From the NCBI GenBank assembly GCA_021234155.1, contig JAJEKV010000053.1, positions 4,990,488 through 5,054,487 on the forward strand: a DNA stretch of 64,000 nucleotides, written 5' to 3'. The stretch comes from Isoetes taiwanensis. Lineage: Eukaryota > Streptophyta > Lycopodiopsida > Isoetales > Isoetaceae. The notes under the pieces are model-generated. The model did no database searches and was not told the DNA's origin. It saw nothing but the letters and a program-made list of their open reading frames with translations. Below, piece by piece: positions 24,270 to 51,920 of the stretch; the stretch's first letter is position 1; every line of letters begins with the position of its first letter. The position numbers were made by a program, and so were the translations under genes.

Positions 24270-24298
24270 GGACATTGTCTTCTTTAAGTCGAAGGGAA

Positions 24299-24537: not shown

Positions 24538-24538
24538 G

Positions 24539-25225: not shown

Positions 25226-26174
25226 ATGGCGCGCACCAAACAGACTGCACGCAAATATCGACCAGGCGAATAGCCCAGCGCCCAAGACAGGAGGAGGATT
25301 CAGCAGCTACTTCAAGAGCAGCTCCTCGCAAGAGGAGACCAACTCTCGTCAACCGAGGAGAGTACTTTTGATGACTCACATGTACAGGAGTCAAGGCAGG
25401 ATTCACTAGAAGGACTGGCTGACCTCATCAATCAGGAGTTAGACGAAGAAGCAGACATTGACTCTGAGGGTTCAATGGATGAAGAAACCCGCGAAGTATA
25501 CGAGCAAATTGAAGAGGAAATACAAGAACACTAGAGGGCAGAACGGGAGCAGGCTGCCAATGAACAGGCGGAACAGAAGGAGCCCACTCCCGAACCCACC
25601 TTAGAAGAAGAGATCAAGGCCTGGATTCAAATGCAGGGGGCGAAGTCACAACGCAAGAGGAGGAGAAGGGCCGAGAAGAAAAGAAAACGAGAAGAACAGG
25701 AGGCGGAGAAGAAGAAACTCAAGGGAAAGGGCAAGGAGGAGTCCAAGAGGAAGCTCAAGAAGACCCCACTGACCAAAATCGTCATCAAGGAACGGCAACC
25801 TGACCAGACACCATCCTCTGATGACGAAGATGATGAAGACTACAATCCTTATCAAGAGGTAGGGAGCCCCTCCAAACCAGCAGATGAGGATCGGACGGAC
25901 AGGGATCGGCAGGTACAGACACCCCCACCCTACCCCACGTGGGAGAAGGAGAAGGATCTAAAGAAGCTGCCCCAACCTGCCCGGGAGTCTTACGTGGTAG
26001 ACCATCTCAGGGTCTACCAGAAGAAATTGAAGGCCTATAAGGAATATATGAAGAAGTGGGAGGCCTACAACTCCTACTACCAGGCCAATAAGCTAACGTA
26101 TGCCGAAGGAGGACGGCCATCGAAGAAGAAGACCCTCAAGCCACCTCCAGACAAACCTATTCCACCCAAGAAGC
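25226..26174 (+). pseudogene. Element A ORF1, part 1: histone H3 tail plus charged insert
   Basis: The ATG opens MARTKQTARK, identical to the first ten codons of histone H3 (the Met plus residues 1-9, including K4 and K9). Residue 10, serine in H3, is Tyr here. The same frame then runs 317 codons: an acidic segment (MDEETREVYEQIEEEIQEH), a nuclear-localisation-like basic cluster (KRRRRAEKKRKRE, about residues 143-156), an acidic block SSDDEDDEDY (about 197-207) and Lys/Pro-rich sequence ending PPKK. In-frame TAGs at 25271 and 25532 replace probable CAG codons. The frame is cut at 26174 by element C and resumes exactly at 51502. The insert between tail and fold is not from H3 and is unrecognised. 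Confidence 0.9.
26170..26174. repeat. Element C target-site duplication, left
   Basis: GAAGC, repeated at 51497-51501. Confidence 0.93.
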
Positions 26175-26676
26175 TGTGACGTCCCCTACTCGTATACGGT
26201 GCCCTCACCGTATACAAACAGGAGTTCTTCCCCCACACCAGCTCCATGCTGATACAGGGCCCTCCACGTATCACTGCACCCGTAACGAGTCCCAGTGGGA
26301 AGAGTGAAGGTGTCATTCTACCCTGTCTCCCTCAGGGCCTACCTAGCTGCGGAAGCGTAAACATACATGTCAGTACTCAACATAATCCTCCATCCACCCA
26401 GAAGGGTGGTATATCAACATCTGCATAGACAATGGTCAGCACATCATATAGGGAATCCTACCCAAGGCTTAGACTCAAAGGGATGACTGACGGCTTGGGT
26501 CTCCAGAGTTCATTGCAGACAGAATTCATGGCAATGGATTTGGCTGGCATAGGAACATGGCATAGGGTTGTCCACTCCATCCGCCCCTCCTGTGCACACT
26601 TTGCAGAGTAGGCTGAAAAGTGTCGGGACCTGACTGTAGCCCGCCGGATGCATAGCCAGAGGGGCTATTCCTGGGG
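26175..26676 (-). repeat. Element C 3' LTR, distal part
   Basis: Starts TGTGACGTCCCC (complement of the LTR end) and carries the GTATACGGTGCCCTCACCGT palindrome. It matches 49952-50448 closely, then stops at the target duplication of element B. Confidence 0.93.
26672..26676. repeat. Element B target-site duplication, left
   Basis: TGGGG, repeated at 38902-38906. Confidence 0.9.
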
Positions 26677-29108
26677 TGTTGCCCCTTTTTGGGCAACATG
26701 GACCAACATGATACTTAGAGTTTCAAGATTGGAAGATATTTGTTGAAGTTTGGAAGACATGTGGTTAGCTTTTGAGGTTTCATCTTAAGTTATTTCCTAT
26801 CACTCATGGGGTAAGAGTTAGTGCTATTTTGATCCTGCTAGAGTTTGGAAGAAATTTGTCCAAGATTGGAAGACCCTTGGGATCTTGCTTATATAGCCTA
26901 ATTCTTTCCTTTGAGGAAGTTTTTCTAAGTTACATTTTTATTTCTTGAAGACCAGGCAGAGGATATAGCAAGTTATACAAGGAGCTACAAAGCATTTTGC
27001 TCAAATTCATTTATATGGAGCTTAATTGAGTTGCACCAATGGTTTAGGAGTCACACTTATGAAGATGGTCACTTGGGAATTGATATTTGCTCTTATATTG
27101 GCCTTGAAGTTTGGAAGATTTTTTAGAAGATTGGAAGACCCTTAGGCCTTGAGCAAAACTATGTTCATCATAAGGTATGATTTGAGCTTTTGAGATAAGA
27201 TCATGTGCTGCTGTGGGTTTCCATCCTTCATCTATTCCACCTTTCCATACCTCACTTCCACCTTTTCATACCCTCTTCCATTACTTCACTACCTATATTT
27301 TTATTGGCCTCACCATCACTTGTAAATTGCTCTCAAAAGATCATAAAAAACCTCAAGAGCAATGGAGTTTGATTTTTACCATCATCTCATCCTTCTAAAC
27401 CCCACCATAGCTTTTTCCACTATTTTTCCATTTGTTTTATGATTTTTTTCCACCATTTCCAAGTTTGAAAATCCATTGACCAAGGTCAAAAGGGCCAAAA
27501 TTTCGAGTATTTCAGTTTGACCTGGAAACCCTCCAGATTTGAAGCTTGACCAAAATGAGCTAAATTGGCTTTTTAAAAATCAAAAAAAGACCTTGGGAAG
27601 CCTCTCAAAATTTATTTCTTGGGATGCGTGCCAGAGAAAATAAAAAATAAAAACCTATTCTAGCCTATATCTACCCTATCACTATTTTCCACCTCAGCCC
27701 CCATTGGTCCACGTGGGCGCCAGGCGGTGGCCTCGCAACACGAAATGGCACAACCCTTTCAGATGGCACGCACAGTTATTAGCTGGGTCAGCATTAAGCC
27801 TTATATACATGAGCCTCCAGAACCATTTTAGCCTGTGGGATATATGGCCTTCAAGAATTTTTCGATGAACCCTAAGAAATAGAGGAACCTGCTAAATCTG
27901 GCCAATTCGTGCCATAACTTGATTGGATCCCGCCCTTTTCCTCCCGATTTATCCTCCTAGACCTTTTCCGAAATCCCTGGAACCCTTTGTGGCACTTGAT
28001 TGATAGAAACTTGCTCAGATTAGGCCGGAAATCATTGAACCGAGCTGGTTTTTGGGAAGGACAGTTTTTAATCTGGGAATACAGATCATTTTTTACCCCC
28101 TGAGATATACCTCCGCGGATCCGGGCGCATTCTATATTCTTGATATTTTCATGATCCGTTTCTACTCCAAATTCAGCTAATTTCGCCGAGATTGAAGATT
28201 GACTGCATTGTGTTTGAAGACCGACTGTGTTGTGACTGACCCGACATCAAAACTTCTACTACAACTCAAATTATCTTCTTATTTTCTTCTTTTGATGATT
28301 TCTGGATTTTTAGAAGCTCACAAGTGCCTTGAGATTTATTCTCAGGCATTATCTTGGGAATTATTTGTCGAGACTTTAACTCTGTGATATCTCTCGGTTA
28401 TAATGCATATTCTCACTCGAAAAATAGTGTTAGCATTTTCTCATATTACAAATCTATTACTGCCTGTCAAAACCAATAGAAATCAGATATTTCAAGATGA
28501 AACCAAATTTAATAGTCATTTCTCATCCTTAAATAGACTTGAGTAGTGTTTATATGCAAAAAAGACAAAGGAAAAGTAGCTTTTCCATAACTGTTACAGA
28601 CTGTGACAGAAATTGAGTCTGTGGTCTATCTCAGAAAAAATCATAGTGTTTGCTTATCAATTAAACCTTATGCACGTGATCTAGGGTTCATTTTGAAGCT
28701 GTCTGCACAAACCCCAACTCAAAATTCGTCACCAAACTCCATCTGCAAATTTTGGTTCTCTGTTTTGGCATTGACCACTTTTTGACTGAGCTTTGACATT
28801 GATTTTCTTGGTCTTCCTTTATCCAAATCAAGACAGACTTTCACCAGTAGCTTCCTCTGCTTGTTTGTGAACCATACCAAAAATCCAAACTCAAAAAATC
28901 TTTAAAGTGTGATTGCTGGATTGATTTTGGCTCTGACAGTCTTTTCTGCTTCAGGGATTGTAGTGATTTGGAAAAATCTAGCATTTCAAATTGAGTTCTT
29001 TTGCTTATATGATTGAGGATTGATCACCCTAAGTGATCTGGAGGTCCTGACCAGTTTTCTTTGTACTTCCTTTGAGGTTAGGCTAAAATTCCAGGTTTTA
29101 GGCTAACA
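26677..29108 (+). repeat. Element B 5' LTR
   Basis: 2432 bp, TG...CA ends, nearly identical to 36476-38901 apart from small indels clustering at CAG/CTG. The start folds as GCCCCTTTTTGGGC. Confidence 0.95.
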
Positions 29109-29111
29109 TTT

Positions 29112-29128
29112 TGGAGGTCCTACCGAGA
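29112..29128 (+). promoter_or_regulatory. Element B primer binding site (tRNA-Gln type)
   Basis: TGGAGGTCCTACCGAGA, three bases after the LTR. Its complement ends TAGGACCTCCA, which fits the 3' end of plant tRNA-Gln as I remember it. Confidence 0.65.
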
Positions 29129-29151
29129 TCTTTACCTGGAAATTGAACTCA

Positions 29152-30340
29152 ATGGCACCAAGGAAGATTTCAGAGTCTGCTGAACCACCTGAGGAGACAA
29201 ATCAACCAGATTTGGTAGGAGTAAGCATGAGAGTGGCTACCAGATCTACCACTAATGCTACAAATACTCCCAACTTGCCTATTCCTCCACCAGCTCCTCT
29301 CTATCAGTCTACAAATATTACAAATATTTCCTCTGTGCCCTCTTCTTCACAAATTCATAAACTTTTTGAACCAGATCAACTCGCCACTGTTCCTCCATCA
29401 GCACCTTATCATTTTGAGTTGACTATACCGCTTTCCCCTTGCTATGATTCTTCCATGAATGCCAACCATTTTCTAAAAACTTTGAAGACTATTATGAAGA
29501 ACATGGGAGAAAGAAGGGTTCCGTGTTTGCGTGAATTCATCAAATGCATGAAGGGTGATGAGGCCGATCTTGGCCTCGATTTTTTGAGCTGCCTATAGGT
29601 ACCAAAGGGGATGAATTGGAACACAAGTTTCTATCAAGGTTTGGTAAGGCTACTTCACCCCGTGATCTTGTCTTTGAACTCAACTCATTTTCCATTAGAC
29701 CCGGTGAGAGTGTAAAGCAAGATGTGGAGAGATTTAATTTTATTTGCTAGTGTGTAACAGAATCGTGTTACTCATCCAACATTGCACCTAGTTGCTTCCT
29801 TTATCGAGGTTTGATGTCTAGACCTAGGATCTATAGGAAGTTATTAAAATTACAAAAATTTGGTGAGTTGGATTCTATCCATAAAACATTTGTAAAGGTC
29901 AGAGATCCGCGTAACTATTAAGCTATCTTCCCGATGAAGAGATCGAGATCCATTTTATCCTCCTCATCATGGAACTGAACATGATTTACATTTTGCTAAT
30001 GCCGCCCCGCTTATGCAAGACAAAAAGAGAAGAAGAAGTCCAAGGTGAAGAATTGATCCTCATGTTTCGTAGATGAAATCGAGATCAAGAAAGTGTCCGA
30101 GGCACTTTTGAAGTTACCAAACAACTTAATCAATTAAAAAAAACAAGAAAGATGCCCCACCTCCCGAATGCACAAACCGTGGTAAACCTTACCATAGAGT
30201 CGAAGCAAAAGTTGTTTTGCAAGGCAATGTCCTAAGTGTCATAGAAGAGGTCACTTTGGTAGAGAATGTCCCGTTTGCTCTTTTGCAAGGAAATAGGTCA
30301 TGAGGAGAAGTATTGCAAGTTGTTAAGGCTTATTTTGAAA
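29152..30340 (+). pseudogene. Element B gag
   Basis: ATG at 29152 (MAPRKISESAEPPEE) opens a frame that is open to about 29598 and continues in other frames. Downstream pieces read like a retrotransposon gag core (FLSRFGKATSPRDLVF type). Near the end a CCHC zinc knuckle CPKCHRRGHFGREC lies at 30228-30269, with CX2CX4HX4C spacing. It would package element RNA. Broken by several frameshifts. Confidence 0.75.
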
Positions 30341-30635
30341 AACAAGATAAAGGTAAACAAATGTCAAATATAAGTTTTATTGAGACTTGTGCAGAGAACA
30401 GAAGAGCAAGATGTTATGGTTGTGCGCATTACGCGCCGAGCTCATCCAAATGCATCTACTGTGTTTCGCTCCACCTCATAAGGTAACATTTCAATCAGAT
30501 CCTCTAATATAGCTCCTCCTCCCCGCCAAAGGTATAAAACGTAAAGATTCTCGAAGTTGGATGAATTTGAATTACTTATGAAAAATTCTAAGGTTACCGT
30601 GGATTTATTAACTCACGAGAATTGCACCATCATAC

Positions 30636-31100
30636 GTGGAAAAGTTGATCAAAAGCACTCCAGATATTGAAGAGGTTGCTGCTGAAACCCGCAACAATAT
30701 TTCGTGGCTTTGCCTCGAAAGCAAAACCGAAGATCCGTGTGCTTTTACTTGTAGTGCTACTATAGGAACTTCCCATCTAGACAAAGTTTTGCCGGATGGA
30801 GGTTCTTCTCTTAATGTTATGCCTTATCATGTTATGAAGGCAATCGGATCTCAAGGTAGAAGATAATACTTCCATTGTTCTAAAATCTTTTTCAAATGCT
30901 AAAGTTGTGCCTAAGGGAATAGTAAGAAATGTATCCGTGGAATACTGTGGGGAATCATTGTGTCTGGCCACATTTGTGGTTGTTGATTTTGAAAATGTTA
31001 ATCAAGCTAATATCTATGATCTATTATTAGGAAGGAGATGGATGAAAACAAAGGATGCCGACCTGATGGTTCGAAGGCACTTGCACCATTTCCAATGGAG
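30636..31100 (+). pseudogene. Element B aspartic protease
   Basis: DKVLPDGGSSLNVMPYHVM is the Tat/Athila-type protease signature (D-x-GSSxNVMP), here with Gly in place of the usual Thr or Ser after Asp. The second half, FVVVDFENVNQANIYDLLLG then RRWM, follows in the next frame. Confidence 0.8.
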
Positions 31101-31259
31101 CAACTTCACAAACCGCAAAACAAAACCGATCCATCCGCTAACATTAGGTTCATAGATGTGGACATACTACGTGAAGAAGATTTGGGTGTTTACAATTTAG
31201 GCCTGGATGCTAGTATACATGAAGAGGTTGTCAACTTTGCTTACATGCATGTTGAATCT

Positions 31260-31690
31260 CCCGACCAAGGCAAAAAGCCTATCTCCGGGTTTGATGGAGG
31301 TATGTCAAAAAACTGGGATTGCTTCTTCTCACGCTATTTTGAAGGATGCAGATTTTAAGTTGATGACTAAGATAGGGAGAATTCACCCTAATATTTCTTC
31401 TAATGCAGCAGTAATACAAAGCCCCTCATTGCGTGTTTACAAGAAGCAAGATGTATGAGTATTTCTCATATTGTTATTTATGGAGACTCACAACTTGTTT
31501 GTAGACAAATCTTGGGAGAATATCGAACTAAACATCAAGACATGGAGGATCTGAAAGTGCTCAAGCCGAGAATTATTAACTTTTTTGATCATTGGGAGAT
31601 TTTACATATTCCTAGATCTAAAAATTTTGAAGTCGACTCATTGTGCGTAAAAACCCTTATGGAGTATTTGTCTGAAGGAGCTATTCAAGA
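31260..31690 (+). pseudogene. Element B extra RNase H placed before RT
   Basis: FDGGMSKN (first Asp), GIASSHAILKDADF, SNAA followed by a damaged EYKAL-type segment near 31410, and IVIYGDSQLVCRQILGEYRT with HIPRSKNFEVDSL make up a complete type I RNase H of the second (archaeal-like, RVT_3) kind. Its last part is in the same open frame (31455-32444) as the reverse transcriptase that follows. In the Tat elements I know, this domain sits after the first RNase H, next to the integrase, so the order here is unusual. The function would be RNA-strand removal during reverse transcription. Confidence 0.75.
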
Positions 31691-32520
31691 GGATGTCTTA
31701 GATGAAGAGGAGCTTTCCCAATTCCATCCCATCTTAACTATCAACCTAGCACAAGAGGAATCACTTAAAGAGCTTGAAGTGCATAAAGGAGGTATATCTA
31801 GGACCCTGCAAATGGGAGACTTATATAATGAAGGTGATCAAGGTAAAATGGTTGAGTTATTTGAGGATTGGGTGGATGTTTTTGCATGGGAATATTCAGA
31901 ATTGAAAGGGGTTGATAGGAGCATTTGTGAGTTTGAGATAAAAGTTCGTGAAGATACTAAACCTGTCATGCAGAGATTGAGAAGAATTAATTCCTCACTT
32001 TTAGATCTTATCAAGCAGGAATTATTCAAAATGCAGGAATCAGGATTGATAGTTGACATTGTGAACCCCTCTTGGGTTTCTTGTATTGTTCCAGTTCTAA
32101 AAAAGAATGGTTCCTTAAGAATATGTGTGGATTATAGAGATCTAAATAAAGCTACTGTTAAAGATTGTTACCCTTTGCCTTTTTTGGAAGAAATCCTTTA
32201 TGCAGTGGCTGGTAAGTCTATGTACTCATTTTTGGATGGTTTCTCTGGTTTTAATCAGATTAGCATCAAAAAGGAAGATCAGTCCAAGACATCCTTCATT
32301 ACTCCATGGGGAACTTATGCAATGAAAAGGATGCCTTTTGGCTTAATGAATGCCCCTGCCACATTTCAGAGAGCCATGGATGCTGTCTTTGCAAACATGA
32401 CTCCTCGAAAGCAATTCAGAGTTTATCCGATGATTTATGCTTAGGTACCGATACAAGTGATCATATTTCAGAGCTAACAAGAATATTTACATTGTGCGCA
32501 TAAACCGAGTTAATCTAAAC
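31691..32520 (+). pseudogene. Element B reverse transcriptase
   Basis: Motifs are FAWEYSELKGVD, PVLKKNGSLRICVDYRDLNK, YPLPFLEEIL, FLDGFSGFNQISI, FITPWGTYAMKRMPFGLMNA and, after a frameshift near 32400, SDDLCLGTD in place of the YxDD core. Tat/Athila type rather than chromovirus. The thumb and connection (32520-32860) are degraded. Confidence 0.88.
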
Positions 32521-32859
32521 CCAAAGAAGTGCATCTTTTTGGCATCCAAAGGCCAGCTCTTAGGCCATGAGGTTTTCGCTAAAGGCCTTCAAGTAGTGAA
32601 GAGAAGATCATAGCTTTAAAAAGCTTCAAACACCCGTGACAATTAAAGAAGTCAAGGGATTTATGGGAATGACCTCTTTCTTAAGAGTGTATGTGCCTAA
32701 TTTCTCTCACCTTATTAGTCCTATCTCTAAGTTGACTAGAGTAGGCCAAGTTAGTAAAAAGAGAAAGTAAATATAGGCCTGTTGTTTGACCGATGAGTGT
32801 GAAAAGCTTTTTTTGCAGATCATAGAGGCCATTTGCCATTCTACACTTTTTAAAAACTC

Positions 32860-33250
32860 CAGACCTTTCCTTACCATTTAAAGTTTACATAACTATCACT
32901 AAAAAGGCTGCTGGAGTTGCCATTTTGCAGGATAGGCACCCCATTGCCTTTGCAAGCAAACAATGGTCTCAAACTCAAGAAAGGTATGCCAAGATTGAAA
33001 GAAGTGCAAATGCTTTATTTTTTTTGATAGAAAGACAGGGACATCTTCTCAAGAAAAATCTCGCACCATCGCCTACATGCAGCAGTAATCCCATGCCTTT
33101 TTGTATGGTAAGAAATTGAAAACCCAAGCTTCATAGGTGGGCTTGTAGGCTCCAATCTTATGATTTAAAAGTAAAGGTCATCCATGTCTTAAACAACCCG
33201 AAGTTTGTATTTACCCGCCGCTTATTTTGAACATGAGGAAGTAGTACAAG
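32860..33250 (+). pseudogene. Element B RNase H (native position)
   Basis: Short open pieces show AGVAILQDRHPIAFASKQWS and QERYAKIERSANALFFLIE, the normal Ty3/gypsy RNase H that follows RT. The catalytic end is scrambled by frameshifts. Confidence 0.75.
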
Positions 33251-33277
33251 AGGAAGAAATGACCAACCTTGTTGTAA

Positions 33278-34310
33278 ATGGGCAAGACTTTTCGTGATAA
33301 ACAAAGCTCAAGGTTGGCAAAGAACCTATTAGAAGATTCCTCCAATATCAAGAGATACCTCCCTGAATTTTCTAAAAGCCAAGCTTACAAGTTTAGACTA
33401 AAATGTTTGACTTACTCTTTGGTTGGAGATATTTTGTGCAAGGTAAACAGGGATGGTGTTCTTCTAAGGTGTGTTGATGAAGATGAGGCTGCCCCGGGTA
33501 CTTGCCGAGAATCATAAAGGTGTTTGTGGTGGTCATTTTTGCAGCACAACAACCGCCAAGAAGATATTAAGGTCCTGATATTTCGGCCTCATTTATTTAG
33601 AGATTGTTATCATGTCATAAAAACTTGTCACCAATGCCAAATATTTGGTAAGAAAATTTTGCATCCCCGCCCTCTTATCGAATTGTGTCCCCTGTGTCCA
33701 TTTCAAGTTTGGGGACTAGATTATGTTGGCCCTATAAATCCCCCATCTTCAGCCCAAAGATGAATACATTGTTGTAGCCACAGATCTATTTACCAAATGG
33801 TCGGCAAAGACCTTTGAGAAAAGCAAATGCATATACCATCGCCAGATTTTTACATGAAAACATTTGCTCTAGGTTTGGCATCCCTTTTAAAATTTTGACC
33901 GATAGAGGCTCTACTTTTATTAATGAGGTTATTAATTTTCTCGCCTCAAGTCTCAAAATCGCATGTGAAAAGCTCAGCCTATTATCCTCAAGGAAATGGC
34001 CAAGTCGAAGTCTACTAACAAAGTGCTTAAGGGTATTTTGCGTAGAAGACAGCTTTGCCAAAACCAAAAAGATTGGCATTTGAAATTATATGATGCCCTT
34101 TGGGCTCATAGAATCATCGCTAAAGTCGCTACTAATGCTTCTCCTTTCAGTTTGGTTTATGGAGTTGAAGCAGCTTATTCCCTTGTTGAGTTGGAAATTC
34201 CCTCATTGAGGATGGCACTCAAATTGACCCGAGTTTATCAAGCATTAAAACACGTGTATGAAGTTTTGCTAAAATTGGATGAGGATAGATTTGATGCGTA
34301 AAAATCTCAA
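33278..34310 (+). pseudogene. Element B integrase
   Basis: Successive frames give the HHCC region (GVCGGHF ... CHQCQIFGK), the core start VWGLDYVGPI, IVVATDLFTKWS, FGIPFKILTDRGSTF and LVYGVEAAYSLVELEIPSLR. The latter is the conserved YG.EA..P.E...PS segment typical of Tat/Athila integrases. At least five frameshifts. No chromodomain downstream. Confidence 0.85.
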
Positions 34311-34929
34311 TCTACTTAAGAAAGCTAGAGTGCAAAGAAATTTTTTAAGGCAGCTCACAAGCTCCAAGATAAATTTTCTCCATTAGAGCTGGTGCTCAAA
34401 TGGAATGTCGCAGATGAAGGTAAGCTATCTAAATTTGAAAATCCTTGGGAAGGTCCTTATCGATTCTAGGAGAGGTCGGGCTGCTCATCTTATAGGTCCA
34501 TTGATCTTAATACAAGTTTAGAGCTGCCAAATCCTATTAACATTCAAAGATCTTAAGAGATATTGGCCTCAAAGATGCATGCTTGAGCCTATTTGCTTCC
34601 ACATAATTATCTATTTTGGCTTAAATTAGGCTAATTAGTTGAAACTTTAAATTTCTTTTGAATAGATTTGCATATTTGACGCTTATGTTGTCGGATTTGA
34701 ATTGGTTTCTAGTTGTAATTTTACTTAGGAGTTTGCTAGTGTGGTTGTATTGAAATCTCTTATAACTGTGCCATCAAGATAATTTTTCTTTGAGGTTGAC
34801 TAATGTGTATTCTTTTGAAGTAAAGCCATGCTCACAGATTAGACAAGTTTCAAAAAAGAAGACCAGAGATTTTTCATTGATCAAAAATAAAAACATTACA
34901 CATGTTACATTTCAGATGAGTCTTTAAAA

Positions 34930-35700
34930 AGGCTAGATCTTTTCATCAAGCCCCAATGCTATCGGGCCTTGGCCCGAATGAATGGTAGGTATCCCGCTTG
35001 AAGGATCAAAGATCTCAGTAGCATCCAAAAGACTATTGAACCCGGTAAAAAAGCTTTTCATGGTGCCAAATACATAGTGTTCTTCATCCCAAAGGTTCTC
35101 TTTGAGAAGTTTAAAATGCATTTTTTTTATCATAAGAAGCATCGAGAGCCATAGTTATCCGCTAGCATCCCGTGGAGAGTAAAATAATTGCCTATATCGC
35201 CAAACCGAAAGATCGCCGCCACCATGGTGGTGCTTACATAAGAAGTAGTGTATATGTAGCATCTCAGATGCATTCCCTTGAAAAATTCTCGCCCAAAGAG
35301 CCTTTTTGTGTCCCGGATATCCGCTCGTGAGTCGTTAGTTTTTCCCCGATAAGTTTTTGTCCAAGAAAGAAAGACATTGCATGGTGCTCATGGTTCATGT
35401 CTTCTTTGAAGAGTTCTTTTCTAATCGTGGAAGCTTGTGTCAAAAATTTTACCCTCTATTATGCATCGCCTCGATATGCATGTGCACCGAGTAAATTTGA
35501 GCGCGGAAGAGGTTCTTCATTAATTAAGACATTGTCCCATTCTCAAGATCTCAGATTTACTTTTGCACAGTGTCTGATCACCCATAAGGAATGGGAATAC
35601 CGTGTATCGGATCAATCTCGTGGAACACTCCTAAATTGTTTGGTTCAAATTGCTACATTGTCCCGCATGGGTGTGTGGTAGGAAAAAGGAGCCATGATCG
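34930..35700 (-). pseudogene. Antisense ORF region of element B
   Basis: Between the integrase and the 3' LTR the minus strand reads as a degenerate protein from MAPFSYHTPMRDNVAI near 35695 to a 69-codon frame at 35142-34933 that contains ENLWDEEHYVFGTMKSFFTG and ends DEKI before a stop. Some Tat-lineage elements carry an antisense ORF in this place, which is the basis of this call. Product unknown. Many frame breaks. Confidence 0.45.
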
Positions 35701-35811
35701 TGAAAGGAGCTCGAGATTACCGAGCTCTAAATGAGAAGAAGCAGATTAGGTTTTCGATTCTCGATGGTATGAATTTTTGAAAAATTCAAATGGTTGTATG
35801 AGTAAGATTTG

Positions 35812-35849
<38 letters not shown>

Positions 35850-36475
35850 CCAATGGTTCTATGAGTAAGATTTTTGAATAGTTGAGGTCTAGTTAAGTAT
35901 GGTAGAGATTTGCTATGCTTTAACAAGTTGAGTGTTGTCATTTCAGGTCCATCTGCTTACCACTTTCATTTGTCTTGAGTTGGCCTCTTTCCATCTAGCC
36001 TTGTTTCCTTGTGCAATCCCAAGAGTGCTAATCCTATATTGCTATTCACCTTTTATTTAGCACTCAGGCTAATTTGCTTCTCATTGTCATATGCAGGTTC
36101 ACTTGTTCTAAATTCTCACTTGTCTTAAGTTGACTTGCCTTCCATTTAGCCTTTGCTCCCCTAATGAACTCTCAAGAGTGCTAATCCTATATTGTTATTC
36201 ATCCTAATTAGCACTCATGCTAACTTGGTTATTATTGTCATATGTAGGTTCATCCACTTTTTCTCCATCTTCACCTGTCTTGAGTTGACCTACCCTCCAT
36301 TTGATCTTCTTCTTCTATCATTCACTTCATCACCCTATGCTCTGCCCCATATTTTCCATCACTGCAGAGTAAATCTACCCCTCTCACCACTTGATGATAT
36401 TTGAAGACCCTTCAGTTAGCATTTTTCCTTTGAGGCCGAGGGGACCAGCCTCATTCTTTCCTTTTTTTGAGGAGA
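35701..36475. repeat. Element B 3' noncoding: poly-A run and 153-bp tandem repeat
   Basis: A 36-A run at 35812-35847 is flanked by two direct copies of an AATGGTT.TATGAGTAAGATTT segment. At about 35940-36330 a unit of about 153 bp (AAGAGTGCTAATCCTATATTG at 36021 and 36174) repeats two to three times with the pyrimidine-rich text CTTGTCTTGAGTTG. Such repeats before the 3' LTR are common in Tat elements. Confidence 0.75.
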
Positions 36476-38901
36476 TGTTGCCCCTTTTGGGCAACATGGA
36501 CCAACATGATACTTAGAGTTTCAAGATTGGAAGATATTTGTTGAAGTTTGGAAGACATGTGGTTAGCTTTTGAGGTTTCATCTTAAGTTATTTCCTATCA
36601 CCATGGGGTAAGAGTTAGTGCTATTTTGATCCCCGCTAGAGTTTGGAAGAAATTTGTCCAAGATTGGAAGACCCTTGGGATCTTGCTTATATAGCCTAAT
36701 TCTTTCCTTTGAGGAAGTTTTTCTAAGTTACATTTTTATTTTTGAAGACCAAGCAGAGGATATAGCAAGTTATACAAGGAGCTACAAAGCATTTTGCTCA
36801 AATTCATTTATATGGAGCTTAATTGAGTTGCACCAATGGTTTAGGAGTCACACTTATGAAGATGGTCACTTGGGAATTGATATTTGCTCTTATATTGGCC
36901 TTGAAGTTTGGAAGATTTTTTAGAAGATTGGAAGACCCTTAGGCCTTGAGCAAAACTATGTTCATCATAAGGTATGATTTGAGCTTTTGAGATAAGATCA
37001 TGTGCTGCTGTGGGTTTCCATCCTTCATCTATTCCACCTTTCCATACCTCACTTCCACCTTTTCATACCCTCTTCCATTACTTCACTACCTATATTTTTA
37101 TTGGCCTCACCATCACTTGTAAATTGCTCTCAAAAGATCATAAAAAACCTCAAGAGCAATGGAGTTTGATTTTTACCATCATCTCATCCTTCTAAACCCC
37201 ACCATAGCTTTTTCCACTATTTTTCCATTTGTTTTTGATTTTTTTTCCACCATTTCCAAGTTTGAAAATCCATTGACCAAGGTCAAAAGGGCCAAAATTT
37301 CGAGTATTTCAGTTTGACCTGGAAACCCTCCAGATTTGAAGCTTGACCAAAATGAGCTAAATTGGCTTTTTAAAAATCAAAAAAAGACCTTGGGAAGCCT
37401 CTCAAAATTTATTTTTGGGATGCGCCGAGAAAAAAAAAAATAAAACCTATTCTAGCCTATATCTACCCTATCACTATTTTCCACCTCAGCCCCCCCCCAT
37501 TGGTCCACGTGGCGCCAGGGGTGGCCTCCGTAACACGAGTGGCACAACCCTTCTGCATGGCACGCACAGTTATTAGCTGGGTCAGCATTAAGCCTTATAT
37601 ACATGAGCCTCCAGAACCATTTTAGCCTGTGGGATATATGGCCTTCAAGAATTTTTCGATGAACCCTAAGAAATAGAGGAACTCGCTAACCGGCCAATTC
37701 GTGCCATAACTTGATTGGATCCCGCCCTTTTCCTCCCGATTTATCCTCCTAGACCTTTTCCGAAATCCCTGGAACCCTTTGTGGCACTTGATTGATAGAA
37801 ACTTGCTCAGATTAGGCCGGAAATCATTGAACCGAGCTGGTTTTTGGGAAGGACAGTTTTTAATCTGGGAATACAGATCATTTTTTTTACCCCTGAGATA
37901 TACCTCTCGCGGATCCGGGCATTCTATATTCTTGATATTTTCATGATCTGTTCTACTCCAAATTCAGCTAATTCTGCTCGAGATTGAAGATTGACTGCAT
38001 TGTGTTTGAAGACCGACTGTGTTGTGACTGACCCGACATCAAAACTTCTACTACAACTCAAATTATCTTCTTATTTTCTTCTTTTGATGATTTTCGATTT
38101 TTAGAAGCTCACAAGTGCCTTTGAGATTTATTCTCGTGCATTATCTTGGGAATTATTTGTCGAGACTTTAACTCCCCGTGATATCTCCGGTTATAATGCA
38201 TATTCTCGCCTCGAAAAATAGTGTTAGCATTTTCTCATATTACAAATCTATTACTGCTGTCAAAACCAATAGAAATCGATATTTCAAGATGAAACCAAAT
38301 TTAATAGTCATTTCTCATCCTTAAATAGACTTGAGTAGTGTTTATATGCAAAAAAGACAAAGGAAAAGTAGCTTTTCCATAATCAAGTATGTGATCGTGA
38401 TGTAAATTGAGTCCTGTGGTCTATCTCAGAAAAAATCATAGTGTTTGCTTATCAATTAAACCTTATGCACGTGATCTAGGGTTCATTTTGAAGCTGTCTG
38501 CACAAACCCCAACTCAAAATTCGTCACCAAACTCCATCTGCAAATTTTGGTTCTCTGTTTTGGCATTGACCACTTTTTGACTGAGCTTTGACATTGATTT
38601 TCTTGGTCTTCCTTTATCCAAATCAAGACAGACTTTCACCAGTAGCTTCCTCTGCTTGTTTGTGAACCATACCAAAAATCCAAACTCAAAAAATCTTTAA
38701 AGTGTGATTGCTGGATTGATTTTGGCTCGGATCTTTTTCTCGCTTGTGGATTGTAGTGATTTGGAAAAATCTAGCATTTCAAATTGAGTTCTTTTGCTTA
38801 TATGATTGAGGATTGATCACCCTAAGTGATCTGGAGGTCCTGACCAGTTTTCTTTGTACTTCCTTTGAGGTTAGGCTAAAATTCCAGGTTTTAGGCTAAC
38901 A
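36476..38901 (+). repeat. Element B 3' LTR
   Basis: 2426 bp, the partner of 26677-29108. Ends GGCTAACA followed by the TGGGG target duplication. Confidence 0.95.
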
Positions 38902-38906
38902 TGGGG
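38902..38906. repeat. Element B target-site duplication, right
   Basis: TGGGG, as at 26672-26676. Confidence 0.9.
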
Positions 38907-39964
38907 TCATCATCCCAGTTCCGATGGGGCAGGTAGGGATCACTCCCTCCAGAGATCTACATGCTGACTCAAGGTGACTAGAGGGCCACTACCCGTATTC
39001 GACTGAACCCACTGGAAAGTGTACACCACTTCACGGGTGTCGAGCCCATGCCTTACCCACACTCAGTGGTAAGCCATTAGGCCTAGTCACAATGATCCCC
39101 GGTAGGCTTTACACACCAGAGGGATCGTTCAAGAGTCAGAACATGAACCTCCTTCTCCCGGCCTGCCCCTTCACCCACAACTGTGTGTGGCTCTCAGACA
39201 ATGTGTCGAATCTACAGTGTGCTAGAGAGGCTACTCTAGGAGCATCAACTACAAGCTTTAGGGCCTCTACCCCCCTTCCCAATACAAGGAGTTCACAGAG
39301 ATACATCATCCAAATACATCACAGAAGAACTAAAGAACTAGATCTAATCATAGAGTTAGGTTCTTTAGTTAGTGTCCGAGATCTAAGATCTAGATAGCTG
39401 CTATGGGCAATTTAATAGTCTAAACCCACCGATTCTATGACTAGAAGACGGTTTAAGCTATTAAATTGACCAAATACCTGATCCTTGAGTGGCTCCTCCC
39501 GACCTCGAAGTTCAACCATCCCGGCCGGGCTGATCAATTCGTGGGAACCGATGGCGCATTCGCTTGGGCGGTGTTCTGGGAGGCGGTTTTGGCCTCGGGC
39601 AGCCAAAACCGAGCTCTAAAACCCTAAGGACTAAAAAACTAGCAAGCTAGGGTTTTCCTACCCTAAATAGACATGGGGTTTAGGCTAGGGTTTCCAATTA
39701 CCCATTTTGGCATGTGGGATAATTGGAAAGGCCCCACTTGCCTTTAATGGCTCGGTGGCAAAATATGCCAACATGGAAAGGTGTGCCCACATTAATGTGC
39801 ACATATGCACATTAATAATATATGAACACTCCTAGCAAGTTGCCCCTAGGGCTACTTACCTGGCTATCCGTTGGCGTACACGTCGGTCGGAGTGGCGGCG
39901 GTAATGCTGCGTGGCAAAGCAAAGATACGCCCCGGGACCGTGATAATCGCGGCCGAACGTCACA
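38907..39964 (-). repeat. Element C 3' LTR, proximal part
   Basis: Continues the LTR cut by element B and matches about 50450-51496. Ends GAACGTCACA, the complement of the LTR start, directly next to the polypurine tract. Confidence 0.93.
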
Positions 39965-43650: not shown

Positions 43651-43656
43651 TTGATC

Positions 43657-44553: not shown

Positions 44554-45625
44554 TATATGGGGCTCTAGCTGGTCCTGGGCGGGCCGTCCCTCGGGCTAAA
44601 ACCGCCGCCTTGCCTTTATCTTGGTAATCTACCTGCCTCCGCCCGCTATTCTCGAGGTCCCGTTCCTTGCAAGCTTATTGCCTTGGACTCCGCTCGACAT
44701 CGTTCTAGGGTTTATTGCCCTTACAAGCTTGCGTGGATCTCCTCATTCAGACCTTCAATGTAGCTTTCCATCGCATGCTTCTCACCTAACTTTGGCACAT
44801 ACAAATTTTAGCCTCATAAATTCCTCCGTATATTTTCAGACGACTTGTTGCCTTGCTGCAACCTCGTAGAACTCGCCGCATCATACCGACTTGTGCTCTC
44901 TTGGAACGTAATGGCGCTTTGAAGGCTTTTAGCAAACTTCTTGAACCCGCAAGCATCCCCGCTTAAGCCATGAGCCTTGGCATAGCCCTTCCACCAAATG
45001 CGCTTACGCTTCCCTTCGTGTTATTTTGCCACCCCCGCCTTTATCCTTATCCTTCATACCATAGGCATTGCCGATTCGGCTCATCTCGCAAGCTGCTTGC
45101 CTCGCCTCCATGCTCGACCCGTTTCGCCCGAGAATTGCTCGAGCTTCCTGGCCTTCCAAACATTTCCCAATGCGTAGTCTACTTTCTTCCGTAGTCATAG
45201 GTTCTTGTGTCCCTTTGTCGTTCGTCCGGGTGTTCCTCTTCGCCTTTAATGCATTAGGACTTGGTTCTCGCCCTTCTTCTTCCTCGAATCGAGTCCGAAT
45301 CGAGCTTGAGTCTGAGGAGTCCGAGCTGGGGACCTTCCTCTCTTGCTCTTCTTCTTGTCTCTACCGTTCTCCGAGCTGATGCTTGCGGCGGCTTGGCGTT
45401 ACCCACCGAACCCGCTTCAGCATGCGGCTAGCAAAGCCTTTATCCGCTCGAGGTCCGTCCTCATTTGCGATATTTCTTCTTCTCGGGGTCATTTGTCCAA
45501 ATTCTTCAAGCTGGTTTTGCCGGGCGGGCTCCGGGCGGACTCTCATTCCTCTATAAGTTCCCGCAGATTTGTCGTTCTCCTGGCGCTTAGGCCTCTAGTC
45601 GCATACACAAGTGGTTCATAGCTAC
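44554..45625 (-). pseudogene. Element C gag
   Basis: Minus-strand pieces match A's gag: RIGNAYGMKDKDKG (45004-45198), the WWKGYAKAHGLS segment, YVPKLGEKHAMESYIEGL and the RAINPRTMS region. Broken by many small frameshifts. Confidence 0.75.
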
Positions 45626-45775
45626 ATGGTTAGTTTTCCTTGTTTTCTTGCATTATTTATGTTTGTTGGCATGGTTGGGGGGACACAAAATATATCAACA
45701 AAACATTTATAGTGCAAGAGAATATTATATTTATATTTTATATTACACTAATACAAAAATTACAACTACGGCTAA

Positions 45776-47311: not shown

Positions 47312-47421
47312 TGATTAATTGCGTAAGAGGGTAACAAACGGTTGCAAGAGCCAGGGAGTTGAGAAATCGGCTAGAAGGGCAGGAGCAGATTTGTAGGGTG
47401 CTATCCGAGAAGTGAGGGGTC

Positions 47422-47429
47422 TATTTATA
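47422..47429 (-). promoter_or_regulatory. TATA box of ORF2 (element C)
   Basis: TATAAATA on the minus strand, about 111 bp before the ORF2 ATG. Confidence 0.7.
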
Positions 47430-47619
47430 GAAACGGGAAAACCCTAATTTTTGGATGACTTGAAAATTTCCTAGGGTTGGGTAATTCTAGCCTATCCGAG
47501 GTCAAAATGGGAGTTTGAGGACTATATGGGATGCTTGAACAAGGCTAGATTACCTAAAAGATGCTATGCAATAGGTTGAAGGTGACTTTGACAAGTCCCT
47601 GGTGAAGAAATGGTAAGAG

Positions 47620-47890
47620 GTCTCACTTGCGCCTACCGCTTCAAAACTAACTTTTAGTTCTTTGACCCGGCGTTGAAAGCCGTGAGACATCGGGCCTCAT
47701 TTCGATCAAAAGCTGTCTAATTTGGGTAAACTAATGGTGTAAGGGTGATGGGCTCATCAAATCAGGCAGAATTGACCCCTTTATTTGGTCGATTTGGAGC
47801 TGTTTTGGTCAAGTTTATGAGGTCTCGACGGCTTGCGCCTCGCTTCAAAACTAACTTTTAGTTTTCGCGACCGGCGCCGAGTGTGAGACA
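47620..47890 (-). promoter_or_regulatory. Two palindromes upstream of ORF2 (element C)
   Basis: 47620-47688 and 47821-47890 each have GTCTC-type outer arms, GCGCC/GGCG inner arms and a central AACTAACTTTTAGTT. They are slightly decayed copies of the palindromes before ORF1. Confidence 0.8.
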
Positions 47891-48015
47891 TCATGTCTCG
47901 GCTTGCAAATGTCCTATTTCACTGAAATAAAAGCTAAAACTTATTAATTTGCTCTAATTAACCAAGTTTATGTCATCAAGGTACACAAAATTGCTCTATA
48001 TTACAAAATTTTTAA

Positions 48016-49271
48016 TTATTTACAACAAAAAGTTTCTAAGGCCGTTCTCCTTTTTATGCGGGTCGCAAGACTCATGTCTTGTCGCATTAGGGTTACCGCT
48101 TTGGCGTGGGCGGCTGTTGAATCTTCAAAATGTTGCACTATCTTTGCCTCAGCCGCCTCTTGCATTGCCGGCGCCCTCGTCAAGTGACTCTAAAGTACAT
48201 TGTAGGCTGCATCACTTCTCGCACCAAAGGCGAGGGGGCCGCGAGGAATGGGGAGACCCGTGGCTACTTGTTGGAAGTGTCTAATCTCCCTTAGCTCTTC
48301 TCTCCACCTCCTTTCTATCAGCTTTCTTCTTTGGTGGTGGCTTGGGAACCTTGGGCTTGATTGGTGGCGGCTTCAAGGTCTGGCACTTTGTGCGCCCTCC
48401 CTCGATGATCGACCACTGTTTTCTTCATAGTACTTCTTTGTAGGCTTCCCATTTCTTCATATAAGCCTCGTGCTCCCTCATCTTTCTTTTCGTATATCTT
48501 TACCACATGCGGTGGCGTAAGCTTCAAACAGGCCAGTCGTGCTACTTCTTTCTATCCCCTTAGAGATTTTCGGGGGTTTACGCACTTGGTCTTCTTTGGG
48601 GTTGCTCGGTCTTGGCTGGTCGGGCACTACACGTTGCGTCGTCAGGGTGCTTAGAAGAGCTTCCACCTGCAGCATTAGGGTTGAAGTCCCCATCGGAAAG
48701 TCGTCGGAGGAGTTGGGAGGGGTTGCGTCGGCTTGCGGCTCCTTGATGGCGATCTTGGGGTTAGGCCTCTTCCTCGTGAGGCGATCCTTGACTTCCTTGT
48801 GCCAATACGAACTTCCCTTTCGCCTTCTTCTTCTCTTCTGCTGCCTTTTGTTCCTCTTCCTCCCTTTTCCTCTTTTTGTCTTCCTTTTTCTCTTCTGGCC
48901 TTTCGTACTTTTCGATGAACCTTCTAAGATGCGCTACCTCTGGTAGCTCGGACTGTCACTTGCTCATCTGCTCGAGGATCTCGGTGGATCGCGTCTGAAT
49001 GGTCTTACGCTTGTTCTGCTGCGGATCTCCGCTTCTATTTCTTCATACACCTCCCTCGTCTCCTCGTCCATGGGTTGGTGATGTGGCCTCGTCACTCCGC
49101 TTTGCTGATTGAAGACATCAATCGGCTCGGATCAATCCTGCTCCTCGTCAGAAGGCGAGCGACCCCCTCGCTTGAGCCTCTCACGAAGCATCTTCGAATG
49201 ATCTCCATCTCAGTGGCGCTGGTGGTTTCGCCTGGGCGACGCTTCCTTGCGGTCTGTTTGGTTCGGGCCAT
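48016..49271 (-). pseudogene. Element C ORF1: histone H3-like protein
   Basis: The ATG at 49271 opens MARTKQTARK followed by RRPGE, the same H3 tail as in A. Five of the ten codons differ synonymously from A and none differ in amino acid. Further on come MDEETREVYEEIEAEI, a basic KRKREEE-type stretch, EAYMKKWEAYK and a Pro/Lys tail (LKPPPIKPKVPKPPPKKK), all parallel to A. The H3-type fold follows at 48300-48016: LREIRHFQ, then a damaged middle, then MQEAAEAKIVQHFEDS and HAKAVTLMRQDMSLATRIK. This keeps MRQD where H3 has MPKD and TRIK where H3 has RRIR. Frameshifts occur in the insert and there is one stop in the fold. Confidence 0.9.
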
Positions 49272-49372
49272 GCTTTACGGATCGTCAATCGGATAAAAGC
49301 GCCGAAAGATCGCCTAAGTTGGGAAGAGCGGATTTCTAGGGCTTGGACGAAAAAATGAGGGGGTTCTACATC

Positions 49373-49380
49373 TATTTATA
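49373..49380 (-). promoter_or_regulatory. TATA box of ORF1 (element C)
   Basis: TATAAATA on the minus strand, 102 bp before the ORF1 ATG. The leader contains TTAGGCGATCTTTCGGCGC, related to the leader in A. Confidence 0.75.
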
Positions 49381-49483
49381 GCTTGGGAAATTTTAGGTCA
49401 AAACTCAAGTTGCTCTGTTTAACATGCTAAGGCACCAACTTAGTTAAAGCTTATACTTATTTCAGACTTTTTCTACCTATTGG

Positions 49484-49739
49484 TCTCACAGCTTGCGCCT
49501 CGTTCCAATACTAATGTTTAGTTTTGCGACCAGGCGCGAGCTGTGAGATCTCATACATTTCTAGGGTTTTTAGGTAATTAAAACATGCTATTCTAACTAA
49601 TTCCTACCTTAGAATTAGCCTTACCACATTATTTTTCTCAAATTCATCATGTTTTGGTGTTCTTGGCTCGATGTCTCACAGCTTGCGCCTCGCTTCAAAA
49701 CTAAAATTTAGTTCTGCGACCAGGCGCGAGCTGTGAGAC
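49484..49739 (-). promoter_or_regulatory. Two near-perfect palindromes upstream of ORF1 (element C)
   Basis: 49673-49739 runs GTCTCACAGCTTGCGCC ... AACTAAAATTTAGTT ... AGGCGCGAGCTGTGAGAC. 49484-49549 is its close copy. Compared with A's version, arm bases have changed on both sides so that pairing is kept (CACGGT/ACCGTG against CACAGCT/AGCTGTG; GACC/GGTC against AAC/GTT). Confidence 0.88.
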
Positions 49740-49938
49740 CACCTCACTTGGAAAAATTTTGGCTCATTCTTTTTAATCTTGTTAAATTCCAATTCACTTA
49801 ATTGTTACTAGCTTAGCATAAACTACAAAATTGAGAGAAAAAAAAAAAAATTTCCCACTTTTCGAGGCTTGAGGATCCTATCAAGTTAGTACTACTGGGA
49901 ACATGGTCAGTGCTTTGCTCTTGCTCTCCAAGAACATT

Positions 49939-49950
49939 GCTCTGATACCA
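49939..49950 (-). promoter_or_regulatory. Element C primer binding site (tRNA-iMet)
   Basis: GCTCTGATACCA on the plus strand, that is TGGTATCAGAGC on the element strand, one base after the LTR. Confidence 0.95.
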
Positions 49951-49951
49951 T

Positions 49952-51496
49952 TGTGACGTCCCCTACTCGTATACGGTGCCCTCACCGTATACAAGCGAGA
50001 GTTCTTCCCCACACCAGCTCCATGTCGATCTGGGGCCCTCCACGTATCATCGCACCGCAAAAGCGAGTCCCAGTGGGAAGAGTGAAGGTGTCATTCTACC
50101 CTGTCTCCTCGGGGGCCTACCTAGCTGTGAAGCGTAAACATACATGTCGGTACTCAACATAATCCTCCATCCACCCGGAAGGGTGGTATATCAACATCTG
50201 CATAGACAATGGTCAAGCACATCATATAGGAATCCTACCCAAGGCTCGAGACTCAAAGGGATGACCACTCGGCTTGGGTCTCCGAGTTCATTGCGCACGA
50301 AATTCATGGCAATGGATTTGGGCGGGCATAGGAACATGGCATAGGGTTGTCCACTCCATCCGCCCCTCACACACACTGCGAGTAGGGCTGAAAAGTGTCG
50401 GGACTGGATCAGAAGCCCCCGGATGCATAGCCGAGGGGCTATTCCCGGGTTATCATCCCAGCCCGATGGGGCAGGTAGGGATCACTCCCTCAGAGATCTA
50501 CATGCTTGACTCAAGGTGACTAGAGGGCCACTACCCGTGATTCGACCGAAACCCGGAAAGTGTACACCACTTCACGGGTGTCGAGCCCATGCCTTACCCA
50601 CACTCAGTGGTAAGCCATTAGGCCTAGTCACAATGATCCCCGGTAGGCTTTACACACCAGAGGGATCGTTCAAGAGTCAGAACATGAACCTCCTTCTTCT
50701 CACCCGGTCGGCCCCTTCACCCACAACCGTGTGTGGCTCTTGTACACAGGCGAATCTACAAGTGTGCTAGAGAGGCTACTCTAGGAGCATCAACTACAAG
50801 CTTTAGGGCCTCTACCCCCCTTCCCAATACAAGGAGTTCACAGAGATACATCATCCAAATACATCACAGAAGAACTAAAGAACTAGATCTAATCATAGAG
50901 TTAGGTTCTTTAGTTAGTGTCCGAGATCTAAGATCTAGATAGCTGCTATGGGCAATTTAATAGTCTAAACCTACTGATTCTATGACTAGAAGACGGTTTA
51001 AGCTATTAAATTGACCAAATACCTGATCCTTGAGTGGCTCCTCTAACCCGAAGTTCAACCATCCCTTTGGGCTGATCGAATTCGGAGGCCCGATGCATCC
51101 GCGGCAGGCGCCGGGAGGCGATTTTGGCTCCTGGGGCAGCCAAAACTGAGCTCTAAAACCCTAAGGACGAAAAACTAGCAAGCTAGGGTTTTCCTACCCT
51201 AAATAGACATGGGGTTTAGGCTAGGGTTTCCAATTACCCATTTTGGCATGTGGGATAATTGGAAAGGCCCCACTTGCCTTTAATGGCTCGGTGGCAAAAT
51301 ATGCCAACATGGAAAGGTGTGCCCACATTAATGTGCACATATGCACATTAATAATATATGAACACTCCTAGCAAGTTGCCCCTAGGGCTACTTACCTGGC
51401 TATCCGTTGGCGTACACGTCGGTCGGAGTGGCGTGTACGCGTGACAGGGCAGTACAGTATACGTCCTGGGACCGTATACTGTGCTGGAACGTCACA
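49952..51496 (-). repeat. Element C 5' LTR
   Basis: 1545 bp, TGTGACG...GTCACA on the element strand. Both ends carry GTATAC-based palindromes. Matches the split 3' LTR at 26175-26676 plus 38907-39964. Confidence 0.95.
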
Positions 51497-51501
51497 GAAG
51501 C
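51497..51501. repeat. Element C target-site duplication, right
   Basis: GAAGC, as at 26170-26174. Confidence 0.93.
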
Positions 51502-51830
51502 CAGCAGCAAGGAAGCCAGGATCGAGACTGTTGCAAGCAGTCCGAGAGATCCGGCATTTTCAGAGAAGTTACGGCCTTCTCATTCCCCGAGCATCATTCG
51601 CCAGACTTGTCAAGGAGGTCGTACAGGAGTTCGACACGAGCATGAGAGTCACAGGCGAGATGCTGCTAGCCTTACAAGAAGCAGCTGAGTAGAAGTTGGT
51701 GCAGCATTTTGAAGACTCGAGAGCGTGCACCTTGCATGCCAAGAGAGTGACTCTGATGACCAAGTACATGACTTGGCAAGTTCTATTAAAGGAGAATGTT
51801 AATTTTGTAAATAATAAATTTTGTGAATAA
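51502..51830 (+). pseudogene. Element A ORF1, part 2: histone H3-type fold
   Basis: After conceptual removal of element C and one target copy, the frame of 25226-26174 continues here without a shift (PPKK joined to PAARKPGS). The sequence follows the H3 histone fold from alpha-N to alpha-3: AVREIRHFQRS, LLIPRASFARLVKEVVQEF, LLALQEAAE, an in-frame TAG at 51690, LVQHFEDS, then ACTLHAKRVTLM. Roughly half of the residues match canonical H3. Loop 1 has H3 length, not the longer CENH3 form. H3 Cys110 and His113 equivalents are kept. Lys56 is Arg and Lys79 is Asp. The C-terminal helix diverges after LMTK. Stop TAA at 51828. Confidence 0.92.
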
Positions 51831-51920
51831 AAAGTTTTGTAGAGTAAGTTCTGAGTGCATAAATATTGATAATCAGGGTAAATTAGTAGTATTTGCTTTT
51901 TGTTTTAGTTAAAATGGACA

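Follow-up and report, generated by a model that had tools for sequence, protein, structure and literature searches.

The question raised by this locus is whether a retrotransposon can carry and maintain a histone H3 gene of its own, and what such a protein would do. The window analysed here (64,000 nucleotides from the quillwort Isoetes taiwanensis; contig JAJEKV010000053.1, positions 4,990,488 to 5,054,487, forward strand) contains element A, a Ty3/gypsy chromovirus with a chromodomain (19991-63902, plus strand), inside which further elements are nested. In a preliminary description of this DNA, the first open reading frame (ORF1) of element A was said to begin with MARTKQTARK, and these codons were found at 25226-25255. 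The capture and remodelling of an H3 gene, as proposed there, is still the best-supported reading: almost certainly, a chromovirus lineage in I. taiwanensis captured H3 genes, and the remodelled H3 is its first ORF, placed between the 5′ leader and gag. An H3 fold, a setting within an element with long terminal repeats (LTRs), primer binding site (PBS), gag-pol and chromodomain, many copies, low ratios of nonsynonymous to synonymous substitution (dN/dS) and two classes of the ORF were observed. The preferred explanation as a whole, in which capture is joined to element-specified nucleosomes as the mechanism, is given a probability of roughly 0.55.

The copy of ORF1 in element A is dead; it is interrupted by a nested insertion, three in-frame TAG codons and an apparent frameshift near its end. 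The insertion is element C, which, as had been claimed, lies at a GAAGC duplication (26170-26174 and 51497-51501). Beyond it, the absence of a significant histone-profile match in 51502-51830 had been named beforehand as the result that would refute an H3 origin; 51504-51689 matched Pfam Histone with E=3.2e-11 (44 bits; family cut-off 26.4), and 51693-51830 with E=0.0026, which alone is under the cut-off. When the histone part was searched against the PDB, the best 60 of 178 matches were all H3 (best E=4.5e-10). The earlier claim that tail and fold share one frame stood in part: the fold is present and in relatives at other genomic loci a single frame runs through tail, linker and fold, so that the reading is independent of joining the window flanks; the window copy itself, with its TAG codons and frameshift, does not read through. 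The charged segment of about 300 residues between tail and fold recurs in relatives as a linker (at least 315 of its 316 residues matched in 12 copies). Element C carries a second broken copy, in which REIRHFQ and further pieces of the fold (~48290-48040) lie in a frame that differs from that of the tail. Over the ten MARTKQTARK codons the two elements differ at five, all synonymously (alignment by eye). A chance match, or a host gene disrupted by insertion, was considered as an origin and rejected, with two copies in the window and many elsewhere; the second copy in element C excludes chance. The ORF, whose absence from all other members of the family had likewise been named as refuting, was also found in element C and in genome relatives that include 12 open copies.

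Two classes of ORF with an H3 fold, both upstream of gag, were distinguished in this genome; element A belongs to type II. The genome contigs were searched with the Histone family profile (best 150 scored of 8705 first-look candidates). The first 15 matches by score were counted as host H3 genes, leaving 135, and the eight of these 15 that were fetched all encode canonical 136-residue H3. A CENH3 query (best 150 of 7902 first-look candidates) gave the 15 host H3 genes and 132 new loci. At least 267 H3-fold loci besides the 15 host H3 genes were thus counted, on 103 contigs, and 20 were examined inside.

For type I, 20 copies were picked from the Histone-profile matches for long open frames and were fetched with their surroundings. 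In all 20, a frame of 442-494 codons encodes an N-terminal domain of ~200 residues that a linker joins to a near-canonical H3 fold (L028 is without the usual start and L012 without the usual stop), and three of the proteins scored 142-149 bits with Pfam Histone (cut-off 26.4). Matches to gag, protease or reverse transcriptase (RT) were found downstream on the same strand in 18 of the 20 (within the 9.9 kb fetched); L011 and L022 have ORF2 and no gag-pol match in the fetched stretch. An exact TGGTATCAGAGC PBS precedes the H3 ORF in 16/20. L015 and L042 proved to be one element, bounded by 1.6-kb LTRs (Kimura two-parameter (K2P) distance 0.036) and flanked by ACTGC/ACCGC, a target duplication with one mismatch. 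Chromodomain matches were obtained by tblastn in L010, L018, L041 and L042, and all four read KHLP. The canonical chromodomain has an aromatic cage residue at this position, so these chromodomains may not bind methylated H3K9. Between the type I H3 ORF and gag lie ORF2, of ~450 residues (L013:4235-5620), and ORF3. In the five loci inspected for it (L009, L013, L015, L017 and L018), ORF3 starts at a TTGCAG that resembles a splice acceptor, so that the region before gag may be spliced. The ORF2 and ORF3 pieces tested matched no Pfam family.

Within the type I fold, T45, R49, R52, K56, L65, P66, R69, R72, K79, R83, F84, H113, K115, R116, T118, K122, D123, R128 and R129 are kept in 20/20 copies, R63 in 19/20 and P121 in 15/20; these conserved H3 positions we take to be ones that contact DNA or H4 or carry marks. 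Changes are frequent at S86, S87, G102, E105 and T107 and at the two C-terminal residues. With the N-terminal domain as query, a profile search of the PDB gave nothing below E=0.47.

For type II, the genome was searched with the element A linker (126 of 22,684 first-look candidates were scored and gave 137 matches), and 12 copies were fetched in which at least 315 of the 316 linker residues matched without a stop (open frames of 403-454 codons). In these copies tail, linker and fold lie in one frame, with the end of the fold lost in L033, and three of the relatives matched Pfam Histone with E=7.8e-24 to 5e-25 (85-89 bits; cut-off 26.4). Eight of the 12 begin with exact MARTKQTAR, without S10, residue 9 being K in four and V in four; in L029, L033, L034 and L035 the start codon is lost and/or one or two tail residues are changed. 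The fold has the motifs RHFQ, LIPRAPF (LIPxAPF) and TLM common to plant CENH3 (by eye). A fold search of the protein database (113 candidate proteins picked by shared words; 100 matched) had a CENH3 of Nyssa as its top match, and many of the named matches were CENP-A/Cse4. The longer loop 1 of CENH3 was not seen in type II, which is gapless there against type I, while the plant CENH3 rows are longer (by eye). Among the type II fold matches in the protein database (11/37 and 100/113 candidates), none was recognised as retroelement-borne, 28 of the 111 being judged by sequence and the rest by name, without genomic context. None of 4756 candidates matched the element A linker at E<=0.001, scans of viral contigs gave no relative, and a plasmid tblastn search with RT gave three records, all below 60% identity.

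Selection was estimated separately for the parts of each protein. For the type I fold the median dN/dS was 0.033 (20 copies, 190 pairs, 103 with usable dS; synonymous sites near saturation), against 0.115 for the N-terminal domain (64 pairs), 0.153 for the tail-like part (101 pairs) and 0.213 for the linker (80 pairs). In the fold of L015/L024, one of the two closest pairs, 8 changes are synonymous and none is nonsynonymous. For type II, the eight exact-tail copies of the 12 were compared (28 pairs). Their tail has an identical translation in all eight and differs at synonymous sites only (proportion of synonymous differences, pS, 0.578); with copies chosen by tail, the identity is partly by choice, the synonymous divergence not. 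Medians came to 0.53 in codons 10-60 (all 28 pairs), 0.17 in the linker (26 pairs) and 0.083 in the fold (17 pairs). These values indicate that selection has preserved the protein sequence of the retroelement H3 ORF, and this points to a histone that serves the elements themselves. The many copies with open frames, their conserved protein sequence and the near-canonical second class go beyond what the preliminary description had proposed. They bear on whether the ORF is a passenger, either a defunct copy of H3 that the element happens to carry or a host H3 gene into which an element has jumped. Both window copies are broken, as this would have it; the many loci, the same position and frame in the fetched copies and the low dN/dS largely contradict it, and it is scarcely credible.

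The tails bear on two further explanations. In the first, a special case of the preferred one, type I would be an anti-silencing histone that replaces host H3 on the new copy, so that a tail without the usual K9 and K27 marks keeps the insertion active for longer. Ahead of the nearly canonical fold of the 20 type I proteins, ARTKQ and AARK (the K27 context) were each found in 0 and ARKS in 1; RKS was found in 4 and TGGK in 13, however, so parts of the tail may remain, and type II retains ARTKQTAR, with K9 in half of the exact-tail copies. This explanation is unlikely. In the second, the ARTKQTAR N terminus of type II would act by mimicry, recruiting or sequestering H3K4 readers or enzymes (PHD fingers, WDR5-like or LSD1-like proteins). 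The exact tail in 8/12 copies, its synonymous divergence beside loosely constrained codons 10-60, and its presence in both window elements with synonymous differences only are in favour of mimicry, but four copies have an altered tail or start, type I is without such a tail, and the fold is conserved too, so the tail would not be the sole function. Mimicry of this kind is quite unlikely.

The origin of the two classes was addressed by phylogeny. A first tree placed all 20 type I folds in one group (100/95) beside host H3, and the broken window copies were long branches; the tree was therefore rebuilt with relatives (35 rows, with 5 type I and 13 type II; the element C copy and 15/20 type I copies left out). 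Type I again formed one group (99/96), which host H3 and one further H3 joined in a wider cluster (81/78); type II formed one group (100/100) on a long branch. Types I and II as a single clade were rejected (approximately unbiased test, p-AU 0.009), which argues for two captures; profile comparison gave the same fold for both types (probability 99.7). Two H3 captures are the better reading, with a long-branch caveat. A clade of type II with plant CENH3 was tolerated as a constraint (p-AU 0.464), and the placement is not positively supported.

Type II might accordingly be seen as a captured CENH3 that would steer integration to centromeric chromatin. The database matches to CENH3 and CENP-A/Cse4, RHFQ and LIPRAPF, and the tolerated constraint agree with this, as does the spacing of 126 type II loci at short range, where 13 lie less than 100 kb from another such locus (1.9 expected under uniform spread) and 18 less than 500 kb (9.2 expected). 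At 1 Mb, however, the excess of type II is small (23 against 17.8 expected), and the 135 type I loci also show an excess there (30 against 20.3), with 2 within 100 kb (2.2 expected) and 12 within 500 kb (10.6). Strong 1-Mb clustering, as for centromere targeting, was not seen in the spacing of insertions, and local duplications may explain the short-range type II clusters, so that the spacing is weak ground for such targeting. The longer loop 1 is also missing, the candidate set comprised only 113 proteins picked by shared words, and host CENH3 was not identified by the CENH3 query among the best 150 H3-fold loci. Centromeric steering is highly unlikely.

In the preferred explanation, capture with element-specified nucleosomes, constraint on the fold, together with the contact positions that are retained, suggests a protein that acts as a histone in partnership with host H4, and the conserved N-terminal part suggests an attached effector. 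The H3-like fold would pair with host H4 as H3 does, and the protein would be deposited together with host histones on element cDNA or at the target site. The effector would be the part that is not histone, that is, the ~200-residue domain in type I and the ARTKQTAR tail with the charged linker in type II; it may link the element nucleoprotein to chromatin or set the chromatin state of the new copy. Taken by itself, this mechanism has a little less than an even chance. Several results weigh against it. Some contact positions vary in type I (R42 kept in 15/20; K64 in 6/20, with R in 13), and in type II the positions of H3 R63 and F84 are taken by P and V (by eye). L009/L019, the other of the two closest type I pairs, has 4 synonymous and 2 nonsynonymous changes in the fold, and the choice of type I copies by histone-profile score and open frame biases fold dN, on which the median of 0.033 rests, downwards. 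AlphaFold models were of low confidence (predicted local distance difference test, pLDDT, 54.7 and 57.1, from 19 and 8 sequences), and none of the structures searched matched the type I model at E<=0.001. No H4 partner was found by Pfam in the pieces searched, which were ORF2 of six type I copies, ORF3 of L018 and two pieces of element A.

That last result bears equally on a packaging role, in which the H3-like protein would condense cDNA or RNA in the virus-like particle, or carry nucleic acid into the nucleus, outside host nucleosomes. The position upstream of gag, the charged linker and the use by giant viruses, in the accounts available in part, of their own histones for their genomes are compatible with packaging; no other core histone was found by Pfam in the ORFs tested, and most nucleosome-contact positions are kept in type I, which speaks against it. 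Such a role is very unlikely. A fuller version of the preferred explanation is possible though doubtful: one lineage would have captured H3 twice, as a near-canonical H3 whose markable tail was replaced and as a CENH3-like H3 that keeps the H3K4 end, and would employ both, alongside host H4, to determine the chromatin state or the address of its new insertions. Mobile elements are normally kept silent by marks on histones, and few host proteins are as conserved as the core histones. In an element family that carries a conserved H3 of its own, probably gained in two separate events, this silencing relation is reversed. Such a family offers a natural experiment on the parts of H3 needed for assembly and those needed for marking, and allows one to test directly whether chromatin can be written by parasites.

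Hairpins of ~65 nt were found before and after the H3 ORF in elements A and C (Table 1). Among the three best windows of each type II leader (L043-L050), the distal hairpin appeared in 8/8, with its start 468-524 nt ahead of the ATG; the proximal hairpin appeared in 7/8 (258-288 nt ahead of the ATG). In seven copies from elements A and C, 16 cells were changed on both sides (8.4 in shuffles; 0/500 as high) and the covariation score was 0.236 (0.127 in shuffles; 0/500 as high); pairs with two-sided change numbered 8 (6.0; 52/500) and further pair types 16 (12.9; 36/500). In 18 copies, both sides were changed in 7/15 predicted pairs; because the copies are related, such changes cannot be counted as independent. 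Rfam gave no match in the window (gathering thresholds) or in 5/8 type II leaders (E<=0.1). The hairpins may serve packaging or translation of ORF1.

The remainder of element A agrees with its assignment. PBS-like TGGTATCAGAGC follows directly after its 5′ LTR, the chromovirus order gag, RT, integrase was confirmed across loci by tblastn, and Pfam Ty3_capsid (8.1e-15) and Retrotrans_gag (1.9e-13) were matched in the relative L018. The RT of element A is for the most part 73-81% identical in amino acids to that of type I elements, with 57% and 63% in two short stretches. No Pfam family was found in the ORF2-like remains, which contain a ~540-bp foldback (53014-53555; arms 79-86% complementary). 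A stretch of ~2.1 kb (54355-56464) is without counterpart in element C and is probably another insertion. The 5′ LTR is interrupted by other chromovirus sequence; pol and a chromodomain of a different chromovirus occupy 20205-24481, and most of the middle of the LTR is lost. Element B (26677-38903), with 2.4-kb LTRs, is nested in the LTR of element C; its K2P of 0.0097 is below those of A and C. At 6705-13657 (minus strand) the window contains a sequence like a long interspersed nuclear element (by eye), with a long frame of 930 amino acids.

Table 1. Coordinates of elements A and C and their parts in the window (z, fold z score).
Feature	Position	Strand	Evidence or remarks
Target-site duplication GTTCT	19986-19990 (left copy), 63903-63907 (right copy)		Flanks element A
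Element A	19991-63902	+	LTR start 19991-20204 has 96% identity to 62368-62581; TG..CA ends; 5-bp duplication
3′ end of element A 5′ LTR	24482-24538	+	93% to 63847-63904
Leader hairpin 1 (distal), upstream of H3 ORF, element A	24736-24812	+	z=-7.0; covariation
Leader hairpin 2 (proximal), element A, partly eroded	24950-25014	+	z=-2.9
First part of element A ORF1 (broken): MARTKQTARK tail and charged linker	25226-26174	+	Two in-frame TAGs
Rest of element A ORF1: H3/CENH3-like histone fold	51502-51830	+	One in-frame TAG, apparent frameshift near end
Hairpin 3, downstream of H3 ORF, element A	51920-51998	+	z=-3.5
Hairpin 4, downstream of H3 ORF, element A	52127-52195	+	z=-5.4
Remains of second pre-gag ORF (ORF2-like), foldback-interrupted	52627-54465	+	43-48% to element C, 29% to L014 ORF2 region
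gag region of element A	56925-58035	+	40% to element C, 43-63% to type I elements
Protease, reverse transcriptase, RNase H, integrase region of element A	57938-60778	+	Similarity to type I elements
Chromodomain after integrase, element A	61098-61406	+	Pfam Chromo E=9.9e-11
3′ LTR of element A	62368-63902	+	LTR identity and 5-bp duplication
Element C, second family member nested in A	26175-51496	-	Duplication GAAGC, TG..CA ends
5′ LTR of element C	49952-51496	-	89% to 26175-26675, 94% to 38904-39897
Element C leader hairpin (distal)	49660-49745	-	z=-7.9
Element C leader hairpin (proximal)	49475-49555	-	z=-7.7
Broken H3-like ORF1 of element C	48040-49271	-	MARTKQTARK from 49271 downwards; fold ~48290-48040 in another frame
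Element C hairpin downstream of its H3 ORF	47815-47900	-	z=-3.1

The literature was compared last. No histone-encoding retrotransposon was among the top-ranked matches (open-licence papers), and the word 'histone' occurs 0 times in the main text of the I. taiwanensis genome paper (PMC8566536), of the I. sinensis paper and of a review of LTR retrotransposons with additional ORFs (PMC7264820). In the available part of a 2019 survey of plant LTR elements it occurs once, about chromodomain binding (PMC6317226), and in that of the report on the Selaginella element Tcn1, ORF1 is gag (PMC2864245). With plant chromoviruses the quillwort elements share LTRs, the PBS-like TGGTATCAGAGC, gag, protease, RT, integrase and chromodomain, but they add an ORF with an H3 fold and further ORFs before gag. 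Type II shares RHFQ, LIPxAPF and TLM with plant CENH3 (by eye), and differs in its shorter loop 1, in the ~300-residue insert after the tail and in being element-borne. Plant LTR retrotransposons with additional ORFs likewise have a conserved extra ORF beside gag-pol, although, in the sections of the review at hand, the commonest lie between pol and the 3′ LTR (PMC7264820). Giant viruses (Marseilleviridae, Medusavirus) also encode histone folds in a viral or mobile genome; these, as far as the accessible excerpts go, are DNA viruses with doublets or several core histones, whereas the quillwort elements are retrotransposons with a single H3 and no H4 in the ORF pieces tested. The nearest precedent is provided by retroelements that captured cytosine methyltransferases, more than once, in dinoflagellates and Klebsormidium, with purifying selection on the captured genes in Klebsormidium (Ka/Ks < 0.2), according to the extracts available (PMC5890265). 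In both cases, on the same extracts, a chromatin gene was captured more than once, in the quillwort probably, and kept under purifying selection; there it encodes an enzyme, which in Klebsormidium lies within the Pol ORF, and in the quillwort a core histone, with an ORF of its own ahead of gag.

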